Notes under the pieces: model-generated
What the model saw: only the letters and a program-made list of their open reading frames with translations
The model's database searches: none
What the model was told of the DNA's origin: nothing
Source of the DNA: Gemmataceae bacterium
Lineage (GTDB): Bacteria; Planctomycetota; Planctomycetia; Gemmatales; Gemmataceae
DNA: 64,000 nt
Assembly: GCA_901538445.1 (NCBI GenBank)
Contig: LR594584.1
Location: 900,655-964,654, forward strand
Direction of reading: 5' to 3'
Part shown: positions 15,202-62,632 of the stretch, piece by piece
Layout: each line of letters begins with the position of its first letter
Position numbering within the stretch: position 1 is the stretch's first letter
Position numbers and translations under genes: made by a program

Positions 15202-15216
15202 AGCCTCAGGTTCGCG

Positions 15217-15297
15217 TTTCGAGTTTAAAGTTCCAAGTCGGGCGTGCAGCGGGTCGATCGCAAAGCGGGCTGTGAACTTTCAACTTTGAACTCGAAA
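15217..15297. repeat. Palindromic element, TTTCGAGTT family, copy 1
   Basis: Arms TTTCGAGTTTAAAGTT (15217-15232) and AACTTTGAACTCGAAA (15282-15297) are inverted with one mismatch, around a loop of about 49 bases. The right arm contains the short unit ACTTT twice. Related elements lie at 58081-58149 and 61174-61232. This copy occupies the gap between the lipoprotein gene and cmk. Confidence 0.75.
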
Positions 15298-15310
15298 CCC
15301 GAAATTGTCC

Positions 15311-23531: not shown

Positions 23532-25889
23532 CGGACGGGTCCCTGTGAATTTGAGTAGTGTACACCGGCGCGGGCGCGTCAGCAACTGGGACCGGGAAAG
23601 TCGGTGTGGCACCGAACTCGTGAATCGCGAACGGTAGCCGGCCGGTGCGACCCACGGGGTTCGGTACCGCCTCCCCTCTCGCCTCGCCCAAGGTCCTCGA
23701 AGCATCCGACATGGCATCGTGCCACGCCGGGCGGTACTGTGGGGTTGGAGCTGAGCGAGTCTTGGTTCTGGCGAGCTGCGTTTGGTTCTGGAGAGTTGGG
23801 CTTGGTTCTGGAGAGTTTCGGGTCTTTCTGAGAGTTTGGGCTGGTTCTGGAGAGTTTTCGTTGGTTCTGGAGACCCCACCCCCCACTTCCCCCAGAACCA
23901 TTTCCCACCACCCCCCCTCCCAACTAACGCGCCGTCACCCGCACCGGCTACGGCTCGAACTGGACCGGTTCCGGCCGCCCGCCCTGATAGCGCGCCGGCC
24001 TTGTCCGCCCAGTTCGCGAGCGCGTCGATCGCCGCCTTGAGCCCGCCGTTCTGCACCTTCGGCTGGAACACCTCGACCCGCAGTTCGGTCCCGACCCGCC
24101 GCGCCGTCACGGTCGCCGGCTGGAGCGCCGCCAGCGCGTCGGCGAGCGCCTTGCGGGACTTCTTCACGTCCTCCAGGAAGTTCTCCGGCAGCGGGTTCCC
24201 GTTCGGCAGGACGATCGGCTCCTCCTCCTTCGGCACCACCGGCCCGTCGGGCCGCGGCCTCTCGGCCTGCGGCACCAGCAGGTCGCCGAGCGACACGACG
24301 CCGAAGGCGACCGCGTCCGCCGGGGGCGAGCCCGCGACCCCGCCCGCCGCCGACGCGGGGGCGTCGGCGAGCGCCGCCTGCGCCACGAGTTTGCGGTCCA
24401 GCCCCACCACCACCGCGGCCCCGTTGCGGGCGTAGTGGACGGGGGCGTTCCACGCCAGCCCGGTCCCCGGGAGCGACAGCACCTTCACGCCAGTGATCGT
24501 CTCGGAGGCCGCCTGCGGCGGGGCCGCCGCGCCGGACAGGTCGCCGATCAGCTTCGGGAAGAACTCCTCGATCGCGGTCGCGGCCGCGGCGTCCTCGGCG
24601 TGGAGCACGAGCATCGGCAGCGGCTTCGCGTCCTTGGGCAGTTCCTGCTTCGTCGGCAGGAACACCGTGACCGCCCGGGTCTTGCCGAGCAGCCCCTCGA
24701 CCACCGGCACCTTGTACTTCTGCTCCATCTCGCGGGCCGCCTCGCTCGGGAGCCGGCCGAGTTCGCCGTTGGACTTTGCGATACCGTCGAGGAACCCGAG
24801 CAGCGCCGGGGCCCGGTTCTTCTCGGGGAGCGTGACGCCCAGGGCGAACGCAGCCGGCCGGCGGGCGTGGTGCAGCAACTCGACCTTCGCCCCCGGCCCG
24901 GAGAGCAGGTCGAGCAGCGGGCTCTTCTGCGCCGGGTCGAACGCCGCCGACATCGTCGCCGACAGGCCGCCGTCGCGGAACCGGACGGACCCGGCCAGCG
25001 ACTTCACCGCCCGCGCGTTGGCGGTCATCTTGAACCACGCGAGCAGGTCGAAGTCGCCGGCCGCGCCGCCCACGAGTTCCTCGAGGCCGCGGGGGGTACC
25101 GCGGGCCTTGTTGGCCGCGTCGAGCTTCGCGCAGAAGTCGGGGAAGTTGACGTAGTAGAACAGCCCGGTCTTGCGGTGGGCGGCCGCGGCGTCCCTGAAC
25201 GCCGCGACGCCGCCGAGGCCGGCCGCCTTGTCCTCGCCCAGGAACCGCTTCACCGCGTGCCCGACGGCCGCCTTGCTCGACCCGGCCACGAACAGCCCGG
25301 GGGTGTACGCGAACGTGGTCTCGTGCGGCCCGTCCGACAGCGGCTTGTCCTGGTTGATTGTCGGCACCCCGTTGTTGTCGTAGTTGACGTTCGGGGCGCG
25401 GTACTGGAACACCGGCACCTTCGACACGTCCCCGACCTTCCGCAACCCGGGCGACATGGTCAGCAGCGCGCGGGCGGCGAGGCCGGCGGCCGGGCTGTCG
25501 TGGGTCAGCACCGCGACCGCGACCTCGGGGTCGCCCTGGTCGGTGAACCCGACGAGGCCGGCGGCGACGCGGAGCTTCTTCGCCTCGCCGAGCATCTCGG
25601 GGGACGCGAACAGGCCGAGCGCCGCGAGCGAGCGCTTCCCGTTCAGGTCGATGAGGTTCTTGGCGGCGTCCTTCTTGGCGTGGACGAACGGGATGCTGTC
25701 CTCCAGCGCGGTCCCCTTGAACACCGCGACGACCTCGGGGGCCAGGTCGGCGAGGTTCACCAGTTCGGCGTAGGCCAGCGTCCCGGCCGGGAACAGGTCG
25801 GCGAGATCGGCCGGCGGTTCGGCCGCCCGTACGGGGCTCGCGGCAGCGACGAGAACGACCGCCGCAATCAATCGGGTGCAGGTCCGCAC
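23451..25889 (-). CDS. Secreted DUF3352-like protein, C-terminus running into a repeat
   Basis: The frame encodes up to 812 residues with signal peptide RLIAAVVLVAAASPVRA. The first 660 residues look genuine: alpha/beta segments such as AVAVLTHDSPAAGLAARALL, FVAGSSKAAVGHAVKRFL and RTGLFYYVNFPDF-like text resemble the secreted protein at 12940-14742. About the last 150 residues, from GGGGKWFWGKWG on, are encoded by repeat copy A and then by the leuA promoter and leader region, and look non-native (SPEPTKTLQNQ). The original stop has probably been lost or shifted. GTG at 25889 has GGAG seven bases upstream; another GTG at 25925 overlaps the upstream gene's stop. Function unknown. Confidence 0.65.
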   Translation of the reverse strand: MRTCTRLIAAVVLVAAASPVRAAEPPADLADLFPAGTLAYAELVNLADLAPEVVAVFKGTALEDSIPFVHAKKDAAKNLIDLNGKRSLAALGLFASPEMLGEAKKLRVAAGLVGFTDQGDPEVAVAVLTHDSPAAGLAARALLTMSPGLRKVGDVSKVPVFQYRAPNVNYDNNGVPTINQDKPLSDGPHETTFAYTPGLFVAGSSKAAVGHAVKRFLGEDKAAGLGGVAAFRDAAAAHRKTGLFYYVNFPDFCAKLDAANKARGTPRGLEELVGGAAGDFDLLAWFKMTANARAVKSLAGSVRFRDGGLSATMSAAFDPAQKSPLLDLLSGPGAKVELLHHARRPAAFALGVTLPEKNRAPALLGFLDGIAKSNGELGRLPSEAAREMEQKYKVPVVEGLLGKTRAVTVFLPTKQELPKDAKPLPMLVLHAEDAAAATAIEEFFPKLIGDLSGAAAPPQAASETITGVKVLSLPGTGLAWNAPVHYARNGAAVVVGLDRKLVAQAALADAPASAAGGVAGSPPADAVAFGVVSLGDLLVPQAERPRPDGPVVPKEEEPIVLPNGNPLPENFLEDVKKSRKALADALAALQPATVTARRVGTELRVEVFQPKVQNGGLKAAIDALANWADKAGALSGRAAGTGPVRAVAGAGDGALVGRGGGGKWFWGKWGVGSPEPTKTLQNQPKLSERPETLQNQAQLSRTKRSSPEPRLAQLQPHSTARRGTMPCRMLRGPWARREGRRYRTPWVAPAGYRSRFTSSVPHRLSRSQLLTRPRRCTLLKFTGTRPMPRTALLAENLRLLRYVRGRFSSRVG
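23557..23585 (-). promoter_or_regulatory. Sigma-70-like promoter of the leuA leader
   Basis: On the minus strand TTGCTG (23580-23585), a 17-base spacer, then TACACT (23557-23562). Transcription would start near 23550, about 20 bases before the leader ATG. The -10 region is part of the 14-mer shared with selD. Confidence 0.45.
23640..23945 (-). repeat. 300-bp modular element, CCAGAACC family, copy A
   Basis: Six degenerate units with core CCAGAACC (on the minus strand) recur every 19-20 bases; on the plus strand GGTTCTGG falls at 23764, 23784, 23804, a mutated one near 23824, 23843 and 23863. One inverted core lies at 23892-23899, so the tandem units can fold on it. Conserved flanks (TGACGGCGC on one side, CCATGTCGGATG and further on the other) match copy B at 57661-57960, giving about 300 bp of homology. 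The element overlaps the 3' end of the DUF3352-like ORF. Confidence 0.85.
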
Positions 25890-28465: not shown

Positions 28466-31400
28466 CTACTTCGCCGCCTTCAACTCGGTCTTCGTCGCCC
28501 AGGCCAGTGCGTTGACGACGAACCGGGTGAAGTTTTCGTCCTTGAAGTCGCCGGGGTGCCCGAGAGAGGTGTAGACCACCCGGCGACCGTCCTTCTCGCG
28601 GACCCACGCGACGGGCTCCGACTCCTTGCCGAAGCTCCCCCGCAGCAGAACGGTGACATCGGCCGCAACGTTGGGGTTCTTGTACAGGCTCCCGCTCGTC
28701 TTGAACGCCGCCACGCCCTTGAGAACGGGGTGGTCCTTCTGCGCCTCGACGACCGACACGTCCGACACGCCCTGACCGAAGTGCCCTTTATAATCGCCCC
28801 CGAACACGTCCTTGTCCATCTCCAGCCACTTCTGGAACCCGTGGCTCGCGGTCCGCAGGCCGAGCAGCGGCTTACCGGACTTGACGAACGACTTCACCGC
28901 GTACAACGATTCGCCCTCGATCTGGAGCCGCCGGGTGAAGAAGATCGCGGCGTCGCACTTCGCCAGTTCCTCGATACCGGCGAGGGCGGCGTCCTTCTCG
29001 GCCTTTGCGGAAATCAGCACGCACTCGATGGGGTAACTCGCTTCGAGGAGCTTCTTGAGCCCGGCAAGCGACTCGTCCGACTTGTATTCGAACGACCCGG
29101 ACACGAGCGCGACCTTCAGCTTCTTCTGTTCGGCTACCCCCGGGTTTACACCCGGGGCTTGCCCCGATCCCGGCGAGCCGGGGGTGTCAACCCCCGGGTT
29201 CTTGAGCGCGTCGCTCGCGAGGTACGCGAACAGGTCGGCGACCTCGGGGTCCGTGAGGGTTGGGGTGTCACCCCCCGGGTTCTTGAGCGCGTCGCTCGCG
29301 AGGTACGCGAACAGGTCGGCGACCTCGGGGTCCGTGAGGGTGTCGAGCAACTTCTCCGGCATGAGCGAAACCGCGGACGGCCGGACGTCCGCAACGTCCT
29401 TCTTGGGGATGACCGTGGTGACGACTTTATTGTCCACGAAGTTCGACAGTTCGATGGTCTCGCCCACCTCCTTCGCGACGCCCGAGAGCTTGCGCTCGTC
29501 GGTGGTCAGCACCGTTTGCACCACGAACTCGGGGCGGATGTAGCCCGACGGGTCCACGATCTGCGCGAGCATGTACCCGCGGTTCTTGCGGTCGGCGGTG
29601 GTGAGGTCCGGGCCGACCTTGCCGCCCTCGCCGTGGAAGACGTGGCACGCGGCGCAGTGCTTCGCGAACAGCGCCTTCCCGCGAACCGCGTCGGCGGCCT
29701 TCTCGCGGGGGATCTGTGCGTTGAGCCACGAGATGCGGGCCTGCTTCTCGCCGGCGGTCGCGGGCGCGACCTTGCCGAAGTGCTTCTCGACGAGCGCCGT
29801 GAGGTCTTTGTCGGCGAGCGACACGGCGACACGGGCCTGATCGACGCTCACGTCCGTCTTGGGGAACGTCCCGGCGTCGAGCGCCTTGAACAGCGCGACG
29901 GCCCACGCCGGCCGCGACAGCAGCAGTTGCACGCTCCGCTTCTTCACCGCCGCGGAGGAGCCCGGATACGCCGCGAGAACCGTCTGGCCGATCTTCGGGT
30001 CCGGGTACGCCTCCAACACGTTGAGCAACCCGACCCGCAGCGCGTCCGACGTACTGTTCTCGAACTCCCTCAAGAAGACGGCCTCGGCCATCGTCGGTCG
30101 GAGTTGCTTCATCAAATTCATGGCCCCGAGCCGTTCGGCGTCCGGCAACTCCGCGTTCGCCACCCTCACCAGGAATGTCTCGATCGCGGTCTCGTCGTTG
30201 AGCCTCGCCAAGATCTCCAAGGCGAGTTCAGCGCTCGGTTGTGGCTGCCTTTTGTGAATTGAGCGGAGTGTGTTCATCACCTTCGCAGGGAATGCCTTCA
30301 TGGCCCCGCCTTCGAGGCCCTTGACGATTCCGCGGAGCACCGGTGCGGGATCGCGTTGGGACCGCATCTGCATCACCTCGAGGAGCTGGCCGTCCCACCC
30401 CTTGACGTCGCCTGCGCTAAGTCTTCGGGCGATTCGCTCGGTAATCAGGTCGAGCGCCGGATCGATCTCGGACCTGAGCTCGAACCGCTCGAACCAGGTA
30501 TCGCTACCCCGCGTAATCGCCGACTCCAGCGCCCACCAGCACAGAAGTTGGAGCGCGGGGTCGTCCCGCACAACGGGGTTCGAGAGAAGCTGTATCGCGG
30601 TCATCCCAGCTTCGTGCGGACGGACCCGTTTCGCGGAGCACGCGAGTTGAGCCAGCACAATCGAGCTGCGCTCTTGAGAGAGGGCCGCGTGAGCAAGCAG
30701 CCGACCAACGTCTCTCAACATTTCCGGATGGTCCGCCTTCAGCCGAATGCCCCAGGTACGAATGACCGGGTCGGAATGCCCAACTGCCTCATAGGTGATG
30801 CGTTCGGTATCGCCGCCGGCTGTGTAGAGGGTCCAGATCGCCTCAAGGCAAAGCTGCGTATTACCCTCGCTCACCCACTTCCAAAGGGTCTTCGCTGTCG
30901 GCTTGTCGAGCATCGCCGCGAGCAGTTGCCGCGCTTCGCGGCGGTACCACACGTTCGGGTGCTTCAACAGTTCCAGCAGCTCTGCCGGTGTCTTCTTCCG
31001 CAGGTCGAGGTCGCGAGGGTAGTCTGGCCCGCCCTTGTACTCGATGCGGTAGATGCGGCCGTTGGTCTTGTCCCAGTTGTCGACCGGGTCGAGGTGGGCG
31101 GCGCGGCGGTCGTAGAAGTCCACGACGTACACGCACCCGTCCGGCCCCTGGAGCAGATCGACCGGCCGGAACCACGGGTCGTTCGCCTCGATCAGTTCGC
31201 CGCCGTGGCTCGCGACGAACGACGATTTCACCGGCTCCAGCTTGTGCCAGTAGATCGCGTTCGAGAGCAGGTTCGCGGCGATGTACTGGTCGCGGAACTC
31301 CTTCGGGTACGCGTCGCCCTGGTAGACGATGCCGCCGCAGGTGACGTGCCCGCCCTTGAAGTTCTTGTACGGGACGTGCTCGAAGTAGCCGTAAGTGTGC

Positions 31401-42538: not shown

Positions 42539-42657
42539 GGAGTCCGGAGTGCGAAATTCGGAACGCGGAGTGCGGAATGTCAGACGGGAGAGGGGAACAA
42601 CGACGGGTTACCGGTTGTAGTTTAATCCGCACTCCGAACTCCGCACTCCCCATTTCG
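42539..42657. repeat. Palindromic element between response regulator and kinase genes
   Basis: Left arm (42539-42580) and right arm (42624-42657) both carry the unit GGAGTGCGGA and variants (CCGGAGTGCG, CGCGGAGTGCGG; inverted as CCGCACTCC twice). The arms can fold into a long imperfect hairpin with a loop of about 43 bases. It fills the whole intergenic gap of the two-component operon. Confidence 0.7.
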
Positions 42658-43369: not shown

Positions 43370-43502
43370 GCCTATCCTCCCCGGGGAATGAGCCCTCCTG
43401 AAGTGTAACCCCGGGCGCATGAAGCGCGTATGAGAATGGTTCGCGTGAGACTGCGCCGGCTCACGGAGCGATGAGTTTTGCGGACCCGCAGAAGTGATTG
43501 TC

Positions 43503-43568
43503 GGGCCGCCGCGGAGGGCGGCCCCTACAAACCAAGCGGATCGTAGGGGCCGCCCTCCGCGGCGGCCC
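43503..43568. repeat. Perfect 26-bp inverted repeat
   Basis: Arms 43503-43528 and 43543-43568 are exact reverse complements (beginning GGGCCGCCGCGGAGGGCGG), with a 14-base loop AAACCAAGCGGATC. Lies downstream of the M42 gene and upstream of the response regulator. It may stop transcription or be a dispersed repeat; no U-run follows. Confidence 0.9.
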
Positions 43569-43597
43569 GCGTGAGGCCGACGAGTTCAACCGGGCAT

Positions 43598-45199: not shown

Positions 45200-46780
45200 T
45201 CAATGTCTGAAATGCCGGACACCGGTGAACAGCATGGCGATGCCGTGCTCGTCGCAGGCGGCGATGCTGTCCTTGTCCTTTACCGAGCCCCCCGGTTGGA
45301 TGATCGCCGTGACCCCGGCCGCGGCCGCCGCGTGGACGTTGTCCGGGAACGGGAAGAACGCGTCCGACGCGAGCACGCTGCCCTTCGACTTGTCGCCGGC
45401 CTTCTTCACTGCGATCTCCACTGACACCACCCGCGACATCTGCCCCGCACCCACGCCGACGAGTTGCGTGTCCTTCGCGAGCACGATCCCGTTCGACTTG
45501 ACGTGCTTGCACGCGAACCACGCGAAGTGCAGCGCGTGGAACTCGGCCTCGGTCGGCTTCCGCTTCGTGACCACCTTCCAGTCGTCGGGCTTATCGGCCC
45601 CGTAGTCGCGGGTCTGCACGAGCAGGCCACCATCGACGCGGCGGTAGTCGAGCCCCTGCGGGAAGCCGCTGAGCGGGCCGGTCTTGAGGAGGCGGACGTT
45701 CTCCTTCCACCCCTTGAGCGCGTCGAGCGCGTGCGGGTCGTAGTCCGGCGCGACGACGCACTCGACAAACCGCTTCGCCTTCGGGTCCATGATCGCCGAG
45801 GCAGTGTCGGCATCGACGGTCTGGTTGAACGCGATGATGCCGCCGAACGCCGAGAGCGGGTCGCCGTCCCACGCGAGGTTGAACGCATCGACGAGCTTCG
45901 CCGCCGTCGCCGCCCCGCACGGGTTGTTGTGCTTCACGACGACGCACGCCGGGGCCGCGTACTCGCGCGCGAGGTTCAGCGCCGAGTCGAGGTCGAGGAT
46001 GTTGTTGTAACTGAGTTCCTTGCCGTGCAGTTGCTGAGCAGTTGCAACGCACGGCCGTGCGATGCCGGGTTCGGCGTAAAACGCCGCCGGCTGGTGCGGG
46101 TTCTCGCCGTACCGAAGTTTCTGCTTGCGCTCGAAGTCTGGTTCCAAGTACCTCCTCGACTCGGGCGTCTCCGAATCGGGTATCGATGAATGGATGAAGT
46201 AGTCAGCGATAGCATCATCGTACTGGCGGATTCGGACGAATGCCCGCAGCGCAAGATGCTTCCGCAAATCGAGTGGAAGTTGCCCGCTGTCTGTTTGCAT
46301 GTGGTTCAGTACGCCTGCGTAGTCGGACGGATCGACCACAATCGCAACGCTCGCGAAGTTCTTCGCGGCCGCGCGGACCATGCACGGGCCGCCGATGTCG
46401 ATGTTCTCGATCGCTTCGGCCTCCGTCACGCCGGGCTTCGCGATTGTCTGCTCGAACGGGTACAGGTTGCACACCACGAGGTCGATTTCGGGCAGGCCGT
46501 GCTCGGCGAGCGTCGCCATGTGGTCGGCCTTGTCGCGCTTCGCCAGCAGGCCCGCGAAGATCGCCGGGTGCAGCGACTTCACGCGGCCGTCGAGCATCTC
46601 GGGGAACTTCGTGATCTCGGCGATGTCCTTCACCGGCAGGCCGGCGTCGGCGATGGCTTTACGGGTGCCGCCGGTGGCGATCAGTTCGACGCCGTACTTG
46701 GTGACGAGTTCGCGGGCGAAGTCCACGAGCCCGGTCTTGTCGGAGACGCTCAGCAACGCACGGCGGATCGGACGGAGCAT
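45200..46780 (-). CDS. purH: Bifunctional AICAR transformylase/IMP cyclohydrolase
   Basis: A 526-residue enzyme for the last two steps of IMP synthesis. N-terminal MGS-like cyclohydrolase domain (SVSDKTGLVDFARELV, EMLDGRVKSLHPAIFAGLL) and C-terminal transformylase (RYGENPHQPAAFY, VVKHNNPCGAA, RVVSVEIAVKKAGD, SDAFFPFPD). The ATG at 46780 with GAGGG upstream is preferred; the longer frame back to 46891 is only repeat-derived (SGQWAVGS). tilS lies upstream on the same strand, separated by a palindrome. Confidence 0.97.
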   Translation of the reverse strand: MLRPIRRALLSVSDKTGLVDFARELVTKYGVELIATGGTRKAIADAGLPVKDIAEITKFPEMLDGRVKSLHPAIFAGLLAKRDKADHMATLAEHGLPEIDLVVCNLYPFEQTIAKPGVTEAEAIENIDIGGPCMVRAAAKNFASVAIVVDPSDYAGVLNHMQTDSGQLPLDLRKHLALRAFVRIRQYDDAIADYFIHSSIPDSETPESRRYLEPDFERKQKLRYGENPHQPAAFYAEPGIARPCVATAQQLHGKELSYNNILDLDSALNLAREYAAPACVVVKHNNPCGAATAAKLVDAFNLAWDGDPLSAFGGIIAFNQTVDADTASAIMDPKAKRFVECVVAPDYDPHALDALKGWKENVRLLKTGPLSGFPQGLDYRRVDGGLLVQTRDYGADKPDDWKVVTKRKPTEAEFHALHFAWFACKHVKSNGIVLAKDTQLVGVGAGQMSRVVSVEIAVKKAGDKSKGSVLASDAFFPFPDNVHAAAAAGVTAIIQPGGSVKDKDSIAACDEHGIAMLFTGVRHFRH

Positions 46781-46789
46781 GGAACCCTC

Positions 46790-46892
46790 AGTGGACAGTG
46801 GGGAGTGGACAGTGGGCAGTGAAGACAAGAAGCCGGCAACCTTTGGAGCCTTTTCCTCCTGACTGCCCACTGCCCACTGTCCACTCCCCACT
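46790..46892. repeat. Modular palindrome, AGTGGGC family, between tilS and purH
   Basis: Each arm (46790-46820 and 46862-46892) has four 7-base units of the form AGTGGNN followed by AGT; the arms are inverted copies with the units in slightly different order. The loop is 41 bases. It ends three bases from the tilS stop and lies nine bases from the purH start. Confidence 0.92.
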
Positions 46893-46895
46893 TTT

Positions 46896-47951
46896 TTACG
46901 ACCGCGGCCCGATCTGAACCACCCGGCCGGTGTGCCTCATCGTGACGCGGCCGGGGAAGTCCCACGCACGTACGCTACGATCCCCCAATTCGCACGCCCG
47001 GTCCCAGGCGTCGGCGTCCATCTGCTCCTGCGGCCACCCCTCGCGGTCCCACACGAGCCTCATCACCGCACGCACCACGGCACGCGACGGCCCAAGCGCC
47101 GCGACGTCGAGGACGACCGTACCGCCCACCCGGGGGCGCTCGGCCTTCGCCAGCACCTCGGCCGCACGCTCGGTGACGATCTCGTGCGCGTCGTTGGCGA
47201 GTTCGGCGAGCTTCGCGAGCGCGCTCACAACATCGGGGTTGAAGGTGCGAAGCAGCGGCAGCAGTTCATGGCGAATGCGGTTGCGAGTGAACCGCGGGTC
47301 CGCGTTCGACGAGTCCTCGCGGAACACCTGACCGATGCTCGCGAGGTGATCGAGGACGTCGGCCCGCATGACGGCGAGGAGCGGCCGCGTGAGAGTGGGC
47401 AGTGGGCAGTGGGAAGTGGGCAGTGAAGAGAAGCCAGAACCGTAGGTAGTGGAACTGTCTTCGGTTTTCTCTGTCCACTGCCCACTGCCCACTGCCCACT
47501 CTCGCACACGGGCAATTCCCCGCAATCCCTGAATGCCGGTGCCGCGAACGATGCGGTGCAGGACCGTCTCGGCCTGGTCGTCGGCCGTGTGGCCGGTCGC
47601 GATCCACGTCGCGCCGGCGTCGCGTGCGACCTCCGCGAAGAACTCGTACCGCACCCGCCGCGCCGTCGATTCGAGATTGCCGCCGAGCGACGCCACGTCG
47701 ATCGCCTTGGTGACGCACGCGAGGTTGAGCGAAGCGGCGAAGTCGCGAACGAACGCCGCGTCGCCGTCGGACTCGACCCCGCGGAGCCCGTGGTTAACGT
47801 GCGTGACCGTGAGTGGTCCCGTGCGTGACGCCGCGAGCGCGCGAAGCAGCGCGACGCTGTCGGCTCCACCCGAGACGCCGACGACGCCCGGCCCGGCGCA
47901 CACCGGTGTCGCCGAGACGAACCGCCGAACTTCGCGCAGCACCCGCGTCAC
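46896..47951 (-). CDS. tilS: tRNA(Ile)-lysidine synthase with an in-frame palindrome insertion
   Basis: A 351-residue enzyme converting the wobble C of tRNA-Ile(CAU) to lysidine with ATP and lysine. The PP-loop is SGGADS (residues 27-32), followed by TVTHVNHGLRG, IATGHTADDQAETVLHRIVRG and FTRNRIRHELLPLL. Between GLRGIARV and TRPLLAV, about residues 150-187, the sequence REWAVGSGQWTEKTEDSS and onward is foreign: it is the translation of a modular palindrome (47391-47503). The insertion keeps the frame, so the enzyme may still work. The GTG start follows GGGGGATTGCG. Confidence 0.93.
   Translation of the reverse strand: MTRVLREVRRFVSATPVCAGPGVVGVSGGADSVALLRALAASRTGPLTVTHVNHGLRGVESDGDAAFVRDFAASLNLACVTKAIDVASLGGNLESTARRVRYEFFAEVARDAGATWIATGHTADDQAETVLHRIVRGTGIQGLRGIARVREWAVGSGQWTEKTEDSSTTYGSGFSSLPTSHCPLPTLTRPLLAVMRADVLDHLASIGQVFREDSSNADPRFTRNRIRHELLPLLRTFNPDVVSALAKLAELANDAHEIVTERAAEVLAKAERPRVGGTVVLDVAALGPSRAVVRAVMRLVWDREGWPQEQMDADAWDRACELGDRSVRAWDFPGRVTMRHTGRVVQIGPRS
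47391..47503. repeat. Modular palindrome, AGTGGGC family, inside tilS
   Basis: Arms 47394-47424 and 47471-47500 each carry four 7-base units (mostly AGTGGGC), outer ends GAGAGTGGGC and GCCCACTCTC inverted, with a loop of about 46 bases. It adds about 37 codons to tilS without breaking the frame. It belongs to the same family as 46790-46892, about 0.5 kb away. Confidence 0.92.
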
Positions 47952-48050: not shown

Positions 48051-48554
48051 GTGCCACCCGAGCATACCGATATGGACAACGCACACGAATCGCCTGGGCC
48101 GAGTGCCGCGGGCGCGGCCCGAACCGGTCGCGTCGCACGGGCCGGGCTGGTGGTCATCGCCGCGGGGCTGGTGTGCGTGTTCGGGGCCGCGTTCTGGATC
48201 AACCCGTACGCGCCCGACGGCACGCCGCGGACCATGGCGACGCACACCCAACTCGGGATGCCGCCGTGCAACTTCGTGGTGATGACGGGCAAGCCGTGCC
48301 CGGCGTGCGGGATGACCACGAGCTTCGCGCTGCTCGTCCGGGGGGACGTGCTGGCGTCGATGCGGGCGAACTGGGCCGGGTCGGTGATCGCGGTGCTGTG
48401 GGCGGTCGCGCTGGTCTGGGCGGTCGCGAGCGCCGCCGCCGGGCGGTTGCTCCTGGTCCCGCGGGGCCGGGGCGAGCTGGTTCTCACGATGACGGTCGGC
48501 GCGGTCCTCGCGCTGATGCTGATACGGTGGGCGGGGGTTCTCATCAGTGGCTAG
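48051..48554 (+). CDS. DUF2752 membrane protein
   Basis: A 167-residue membrane protein: three hydrophobic segments (VARAGLVVIAAGLVCVFGAA; SVIAVLWAVALVWAVASAAA; LTMTVGAVLALMLIRWAGVL) and the DUF2752 signature KPCPACGMTTSFALL. Function unknown. GTG 48051 has GGAGG six bases before it. The GGC-TAG at its end is part of a palindromic element. Confidence 0.85.
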   Translation: MPPEHTDMDNAHESPGPSAAGAARTGRVARAGLVVIAAGLVCVFGAAFWINPYAPDGTPRTMATHTQLGMPPCNFVVMTGKPCPACGMTTSFALLVRGDVLASMRANWAGSVIAVLWAVALVWAVASAAAGRLLLVPRGRGELVLTMTVGAVLALMLIRWAGVLISG

Positions 48555-48620
48555 TGTGAGTGCGAGTGTGAGGGAGGCACGGGCCGGCGGCCCGCGTCCT
48601 CACTCGTACTCACACTAGCC
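48549..48620. repeat. Palindromic element, GGCTAGTGTGAGTG family, copy 1
   Basis: Left arm 48549-48573 begins GGCTAGTGTGAGTG; right arm 48598-48620 ends CACTCACACTAGCC-like in inverse, with a GC palindrome (GGGCCGGCGGCCC) in the loop. The TAG in the left arm is the stop codon of the DUF2752 gene. A relative lies at 50018-50098. Confidence 0.85.
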
Positions 48621-48648
48621 GCTCACACTTGCTGGGGGGCGTTCACGG

Positions 48649-57660: not shown

Positions 57661-57960
57661 TGACGGCGCAGCGCTTGTGCGTGTGTTGGGAGGGAAATGG
57701 TTCTGGGGGAAGTGGGGGGTGGGGTGTCCAGAACCAACGAAAACTCTCCAGAAAGACGCGAAACTCTCCAGAATCAACGGAAACTCTCCAGAACCAAGCC
57801 CAACTCTCCAGAACCAAATTGCGATTCGCCAGAACCAAGACTCTCCCAACCCCAAACCCAGCGTACCGCCCGGCCCGGTGCGACACCATGTCGGATGTTG
57901 CCCCGCGGATTATGGGCGATGCGATCACGAACTCCGTGCGCCGCACTGACCGGCTCCGGA
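57661..57960 (+). repeat. 300-bp modular element, CCAGAACC family, copy B
   Basis: Six units with core CCAGAA(CC) at 57728, 57748, 57768, 57788, 57808 and 57829, a period of 20 bases, plus one inverted core GGTTCTGG at 57699-57706. Homologous to copy A (23640-23945) over its whole length including both flanks. It lies downstream of the ubiB-like gene. No open frame or transposase. Confidence 0.87.
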
Positions 57961-59540: not shown

Positions 59541-59606
59541 GGTGGGGCAGACATTCCTGTCTGCCTCCGGACACGACAGGAGGCAGGCAAGAATGCCTGC
59601 CCCACC
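59541..59606. repeat. Inverted repeat of the GGTGGGGCAG family
   Basis: Arms 59541-59566 and 59581-59606 are inverted with 23 of 26 matching. The loop is 14 bases. Sequences of this kind are dispersed in planctomycete genomes (from memory). It lies between the TPR gene and the hydrolase-fold gene. Confidence 0.85.
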
Positions 59607-61173: not shown

Positions 61174-61232
61174 TCAAGTTTCGAGTCCAACGTGCCCGTC
61201 TTCTCACTTTGAACCTTGGACTCGAAACTTGA
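61174..61232. repeat. Palindromic element, TTTCGAGTT family, copy 3
   Basis: Perfect 17-bp inverted arms, TCAAGTTTCGAGTCCAA (61174-61190) and its complement at 61216-61232, with a 25-base loop. It is 69 bases beyond the stop of the methyltransferase gene. Confidence 0.9.
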
Positions 61233-62525: not shown

Positions 62526-62632
62526 TCGATGGATCCGTAGGTGTTCTGTAGCCGGCCCCTGCGAGGCCGGGCCTCGGGGAGTCCTCACGGTGCCGACCGC
62601 ACAGGGGCCGGCTACAGGAATACATCAATCGA
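62526..62632. repeat. 107-bp palindromic element, GATCCGTGGGTG family, copy 2
   Basis: Left arm ends CTGTAGCCGGCCCCTG and right arm begins CAGGGGCCGGCTACAG (perfect 16-bp pairing), outer ends TCGATGGAT and ATCAATCGA. Direct homologue of 61054-61160. Confidence 0.88.

Follow-up and report, generated by a model that had tools for sequence, protein, structure and literature searches.

The tilS gene of a Gemmataceae bacterium contains, within its open reading frame, a palindrome whose arms are tandem 7-base units, and a second palindrome of the same build separates tilS from purH. The locus raises the question of where such structures come from and how a conserved enzyme accommodates one of them. 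We addressed it in the window (the whole stretch of 64,000 nucleotides that was analysed), elsewhere in the same genome and at the same gene sites in sister species.

Two heptamer palindromes at the tilS-purH locus

Direct reading of the sequence confirmed two palindromes of AGTGGNN heptamers and, as an earlier sequence-only reading had described, four units in each arm of both. The palindrome inside tilS (E2; inverted repeat I2 and RNA fold) spans 47391..47503 with its GAG/CTC flanks and 47394-47500 without them. Its left arm (47394..47421, plus strand, tandem period 7) consists of AGTGGGC, AGTGGGC, AGTGGGA and AGTGGGC, and its right arm (47473..47500, minus strand, period 7), read inward, of AGTGGGC, AGTGGGC, AGTGGGC and AGTGGAC. 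In the second palindrome (E1, 46790..46892; inverted repeats I1/I7 and RNA fold) the left arm (46790..46817, plus strand) reads AGTGGAC, AGTGGGG, AGTGGAC, AGTGGGC and the right arm (46865..46892, minus strand), again inward, AGTGGGG, AGTGGAC, AGTGGGC, AGTGGGC. Counting four units in each arm leaves loops of 51 nt in E2 (47422..47472) and 47 nt in E1 (46818..46864), and not the 41-46 bases previously given. The tilS strand of the E2 loop contains GAAAACCGAAGACAG, and the E1 loop has AGTGAAGACAAGAAGCCGG...; the words AAGAC and AGACA are enriched in loops genome-wide. The I2 arms are 92% complementary over 37 nt, and E1 pairs with an offset of one unit, 25 nt of it perfectly.

E2 lies in frame in tilS (46896..47951, minus strand), a 351-aa ORF assigned by sequence and fold to TilS structures in the PDB, and its insert occupies about residues 151-186 (peptide WAVGSGQWTEKTEDSSTTYGSGFSSLPTSHCPLPT). 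The position of E1 between the genes also held: it occupies nearly the entire 115-bp gap from the tilS stop (46896) to the ATG (46780) of purH (45200..46780, minus strand), an ORF that adjoins tilS in most congeners. The purH open frame extends in frame upstream across E1 to a GTG at 46891. No target-site duplication was visible at E1 or E2 when the sequence was read directly.

The predicted RNA hairpins have energies of -75.6 kcal/mol for E2 (z about -10.5) and -72.3 kcal/mol for E1 (z about -8.9). The pattern AGTGGNNx3+AGT occurs seven times in the window, against a mean of 0.0 in 100 dinucleotide shuffles. A scan of the window returned no Rfam match at gathering thresholds, and no tRNA or tmRNA genes were found in it.

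A genome-wide family of heptamer palindromes

Many other copies were found when the genome was searched. AGTGGNNx3+AGT has 110 matches in the 7.86-Mb genome and the reversed pattern 2, while the looser AGTNNNNx4+AGT has 66 matches and its control 0. Arrays and hairpins were counted in 60 sampled stretches, about 1.1 Mb including the window, whose absolute densities are biased because they were picked around pattern matches. Tandem arrays of period 7 numbered 66 and those of the harmonic 14 numbered 35, against 1-9 for each other period; this contrast takes in families that had not been searched for (AGTGCGG, AGTGTTT, AGTTTCG, CGTTTCG, GAANNNC and AAAAGGT-like). A hairpin scan of the stretches yielded 75 palindromes with 7-periodic arms.

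Four units is the commonest arm size of AGTGG elements (33/72 left arms, 36/72 right arms), and many apparent five-unit arms are four units followed by a loop start of AGTGAAG or AGTTGAA. The constrained four-unit architecture proposed earlier therefore stands as the commonest form genome-wide, alongside which other arm sizes occur. Within the unit, positions 1-5 are conserved at 91-99% and positions 6-7 vary. When the arms of an element were compared position by position, their units were identical in 26% of cases against 13% after permutation, a value as high being reached in 0/5000 permutations. The loop words AAGAC and AGACA are about 13-18-fold over-represented in AGTGG and other heptamer elements, and AGACA is about 10-fold over-represented in palindromes that lack heptamers as well. 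These common words hint at one machinery working on hairpins with differing arms.

The window holds further repeats. Palindromes of other unit families with the layout of E1 and E2 lie at 15211-15303 and 61174-61232 (both AGTTTCG-type), at 42545-42657 (GGAGTGC/GGAATTC-type) and at 48546-48623 (AGTGTG-type). Palindromes with no 7-nt period are found at 43502-43569, 59541-59606 and 62546-62617; among them the CTGTAGCCGGCC and CGGGCCGCC...GGGGCCGCC types are also present at other places in the genome. Other abundant palindromes, such as ATCCACAGATTACGCAGAAGACACAGATT and GGCCGCAAAAAAGCACAGAAGTCACAAA, have arms with a longer period, about 9 nt, and similar loops; they are located, for example, at L058 16744, L060 12961 and L084 4127 of the sampled stretches. 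Arrays of 20/40-bp units at 23761-23873 (CTTGGTTCTGGAGAGTTTCG) and 57727-57817 (TCCAGAACCAACGAAAACTC), 34 kb apart, are apparent reverse complements of one another, and an 81-bp (27-codon) unit is duplicated in tandem almost perfectly at 29181-29341. The stored genome also contains an 855-base run of N at L061 2718-3572 (C3, near 404 kb).

In-frame copies in conserved genes

Copies were counted as in frame where the ORF stayed open through the element and the DNA looked coding on both sides by GC at codon positions; calls of gene and non-gene DNA likewise relied on this GC measure and on open frames rather than annotation. Such a copy was found in at least 13 conserved ORFs of this genome, most of which were named through NCBIfam or through PDB matches with a gap at the insert: TilS, MnmG, Mfd, GlnE (with two), QueG, YgiQ, RsgA, HemW and UbiD, together with a Clp ATPase, an aminotransferase, a kinase and a GTPase. 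The peptide signature (V)GSGQWAVGS...E..K...SLPTAHSPLPT recurs in many conserved proteins. Scores lay above the curated NCBIfam cut-offs for MnmG (810 bits), Mfd (988), GlnE (650), YgiQ (817), QueG (333), RsgA (TIGR00157, 221) and HemW (251). Alignments to solved structures skip the insert, residues 144/178 of MnmG falling against 150/158 of 2zxh and residues 150/187 of TilS against 156/163 of 3a2k. The two in-frame palindromes of the glnE gene (L049 7498-7599 and 8451-8549) belong to different unit families.

The AGTGGGC unit has no stop on either strand, and an arm of such units encodes one cyclic heptapeptide in every frame, SGQWAVG, with AHCPLPT on the opposite strand. Since 7 and 3 have no common factor and the whole element is a palindrome, nearly the same peptide results in any frame and orientation, so that the AGTGGGC unit brings in no stop at any landing site. 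Around half of all heptamers likewise have no stop on either strand; stop-freeness therefore acts as a filter and does not set this unit apart. Stop-containing units were rarer in in-gene AGTGG elements (4/12) than in those outside genes (21/30, p 0.04). Purging of AGTGGTC units alone was not significant (p 0.31).

An AlphaFold2 model of TilS, made with 19 relatives (pLDDT 89, pTM 0.85), matches solved TilS structures (3a2k, TM 0.82). Residues 161-179 of the insert have pLDDT below 50 and sit at a hairpin tip, between strands 149-151 and 186-188. On this model the insert would most simply be a disordered, tolerated loop on an otherwise normal TilS. Since the reading frame is conserved, the insert is most likely translated as such a loop and not removed.

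The same sites in sister species

The tilS orthologues of the genus (tilS 58-73% identical) do not have the insert in common: congeners have no palindrome or a different one there. At this site we found palindromes of the CCCTCCCC type, AGAGGTC heptamers, the GCGAGCGGGGGGC type and others, or else a short linker. TilS of other phyla and groups has a short linker only, with no palindrome. The MnmG, Mfd, GlnE, QueG and YgiQ sites follow the same pattern across the genus, and the tilS-purH gap holds other palindromes in several congeners and is empty in others. Seven sites were compared in 95 cells outside this genome, G012 and G017; 58 of the 95 were palindromic beyond 40 shuffles, often from a different family, the comparison covering 16 congeners and the TilS of G051, an outgroup of another genus, with species counts being non-independent.

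Insert length was a multiple of three in 62/65 of all palindromic inserts (p 3e-26). The remaining three occur in G010 (TilS) and in G006 and G007 (MnmG), in draft or possibly frameshifted genes. A 7-periodic stretch occurred in 32/65 palindromic inserts compared with 3/47 non-palindromic linkers. The species compared are too distant for the purpose at 58-73% tilS identity, and none of the comparisons demonstrated transposition, duplication of a target or a precise empty site.

The word GAAGAC showed a strand preference in in-gene inserts, lying on the coding strand in 20/54 and on the opposite strand in 5/54. Acidic linkers may have been selected for, or the elements may insert in a preferred orientation.

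Association with Y1 transposases

Transposases of the Y1 class (HUH, IS200/RAYT-type) act on single-strand hairpins. Within the genus, species with more Y1 genes tended to have more AGT heptamer arrays (rho 0.62; partial on genome size 0.67, p 0.002, with species non-independent), whereas the DDE_Tnp_1 control showed no such relation to array number (rho -0.10, partial -0.01). The three congeners with no detected Y1 gene (G008, G012 and G017) have no arrays. Two of these, G012 and G017, have no palindrome at any of the seven sites (14 sites in the two together) and lack DDE transposases too, and their contrast is therefore confounded with small, element-poor genomes; only G008, which has many DDE genes but neither Y1 nor arrays, is free of this confounding. 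Arrays are present despite the lack of a detected Y1 gene in G024, G040 and G104. Heptamer palindromes flanked 0/20 of the Y1 loci inspected in the genus, and several of these loci have GTAG-type palindromes in their place. This genome encodes four Y1 proteins (C2:2013228, C3:982308, C3:2687395 and C3:4325406). The Y1 role in heptamer palindromes is a lead, not a result.

Y1 genes of the genus are often flanked by palindromes of the GTAG type (CACCCCTGGCTAC...GTAGCCAGGGGTG; L129, L130, L136-L138 and L146), which are a RAYT/REP-like system distinct from that of the heptamer palindromes. A simple REPtron, in which a RAYT directly owns the heptamer palindromes, was rejected, the Y1 genes being flanked by other palindromes.

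Origin of the elements

We consider it probable that E1 and E2 are copies of a dispersed element of about 100 bp, palindromic and presumably non-autonomous, an RPE-like (Rickettsia palindromic element-like) form of selfish DNA in Gemmataceae. Its plan would be four heptamers, a loop of about 50 nt with GAAGAC-like words, and four more heptamers. We infer mobility or templated copying from the dispersal, the fixed architecture and the common loops; copies would have spread by transposition or by templated copying, and those within genes would persist only at permissive surface loops where the frame is kept open. A Y1 transposase (HUH, IS200/RAYT-type) may help to spread or maintain the palindromes. 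Taken together, the elements have the look of selfish DNA with a rapid turnover, tolerated by the proteins that carry it. The sequence-only reading is supported, and neither of the two results that would have spoken against it appeared: the genome has many other copies, and the insert is not common to the tilS orthologues. The many unit families, the other housekeeping targets and the re-use of sites by unrelated palindromes in sister species had escaped it.

A possible but doubtful alternative is a single ancient insertion per site, with the arms later overwritten by the active heptamer family of each genome (concerted arm conversion) and the position, sometimes also the loop, inherited. Insert boundaries at almost the same nucleotide in many species would fit such a history. 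So would the Mfd inserts, where GGACAGATGAAGACGA of this genome and GGACAGACGAAGACGA of G005 agree at 15/16 positions between arms of AGTGGNN and CGGAAGG, respectively; however, about 5% of non-orthologous pairs reach the same score, a match that is unexceptional because GAAGAC is common in loops. Orthologous insert cores slightly outscore non-orthologous ones (p 0.002), but this excess comes largely from pairs sharing an arm family (GlnE), and the scoring may point, weakly, to loop inheritance with arm swapping. The same ambiguity is posed by RPE-4/6/7 of Rickettsia (PMC3767692). The non-heptamer palindromes at the same sites here would require separate insertions. Rather unlikely, in our judgement, is an origin in place, by which slippage expands short repeats at tolerant linkers and template switching makes the palindromes, with no transposition. 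Palindromes are known to arise by template switching, which has been discussed for the coding palindromes of nematomorph mitochondria (PMC6649704); arms that mirror one another more within an element than between elements, and perfect palindromes of many unrelated sequences at one site in different species, agree with it. Local slippage nevertheless predicts unrelated, locus-specific units and periods other than 7, whereas a single unit family is found at dozens of loci, where the arms again have four units and the loops contain words common across families. Unlikely too, and put forward as speculation, is a system, perhaps Y1-based, that would recognise hairpins and copy the current heptamer array into the arms of palindromes resident at fixed sites, keeping the loop, a satellite conversion in which the 7-nt unit would be preserved as frame- and orientation-neutral in genes.

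Selection for hairpins in mRNA, as regulatory stem-loops or as RNA intervening sequences excised before translation, is very unlikely. The predicted hairpins are very stable and stand mid-mRNA, and E1 lies immediately upstream of the purH start. Excision, however, would not need the frame that 62/65 inserts keep, many of the sites have no hairpin at all in congeners, and Rfam returned no match at gathering thresholds. Chance, low-complexity coding sequence or an assembly artefact we regard as negligible: a high-GC genome might throw up short repeats by chance, but the shuffle and reversed-pattern controls gave almost none and the pattern recurs across independent genomes.

Comparison with known systems

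To our knowledge, accounts of in-frame palindromic selfish DNA have been confined essentially to Rickettsiales, and we found no description of such elements in planctomycetes in the open-access literature. Palindromes dispersed as mobile, RPE-like elements would place it in a large-genome planctomycete lineage, where in-frame palindromes are widespread and differ between almost all congeners. Their targets are defined loops of conserved enzymes of tRNA modification, repair and nitrogen control, which amounts to a natural experiment on the protein positions that tolerate insertion. A testable idea is that 7-nt units recur in unrelated bacteria through frame- and orientation-neutral coding, and the elements offer a possible route to the enzyme responsible for heptamer repeats that have long gone unexplained.

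Among those repeats are the TAACTGA heptamers of Beggiatoaceae, cyanobacteria and Bacteroidetes (PMC4679880) and the GGGAATC repeats of Xanthomonas, some arrays of which are paired in inverted orientation (PMC4692102). The elements resemble these and the cyanobacterial STRRs in their abundant 7-nt tandem arrays, over-represented genome-wide here, and the AGTTATC arrays of one congener correspond to TAACTGA on the other strand. STRR, TAACTGA and GGGAATC repeats have been described mostly as direct and mainly intergenic and not as arms of in-frame palindromes, whereas the arrays reported here are palindrome arms with a common loop, many of them in frame in genes.

REP/REPIN (RAYT) and TIR/TIRYT systems are alike in their inverted pairs of units, about 100 bp in size, and their many copies; abundance is associated with Y1 genes, here with exceptions, and unrelated inverted repeats are known to flank RAYT-like genes (PMC3733652). 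In contrast to REP/REPIN, no GTAG or CGTC tag was read at the hairpin feet or flanks of E1 and E2, no constant tag was seen by eye at the feet of the hairpin-scan set, and heptamer palindromes flank none of the 20 Y1 genes inspected. MITEs such as ERIC and RU are small non-autonomous inverted-repeat elements, sometimes intragenic, that can form in-frame fusions (PMC2759123, PMC10969869); in the present case no parent insertion sequence was found, and no target duplication was visible at E1 or E2.

The closest kind are the palindromic elements of Rickettsia and Wolbachia. RPEs are dispersed palindromes of 100-150 bp inserted in frame at tolerated positions of housekeeping genes, and orthologues may hold different RPE groups at one locus (PMC3767692, PMC10969869). 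The resemblance to them that the sequence had first suggested holds as an analogy: dispersed palindromes of about 100 bp that sit in surface linkers and are inserted in frame, here in multiples of three in all but three of the 65 inserts. The differences are the host, Gemmataceae, from another phylum; the arms, which are tandem heptamers (4+4) of several families; and the sites, which host unrelated palindromes across a whole genus. Among named TilS matches the nearest are from Gemmataceae, and the assignment of the host to that family or close to it rests on them. We would file the elements as RPE-like rather than as RPE, by analogy, the likeness observed being one of lifestyle.
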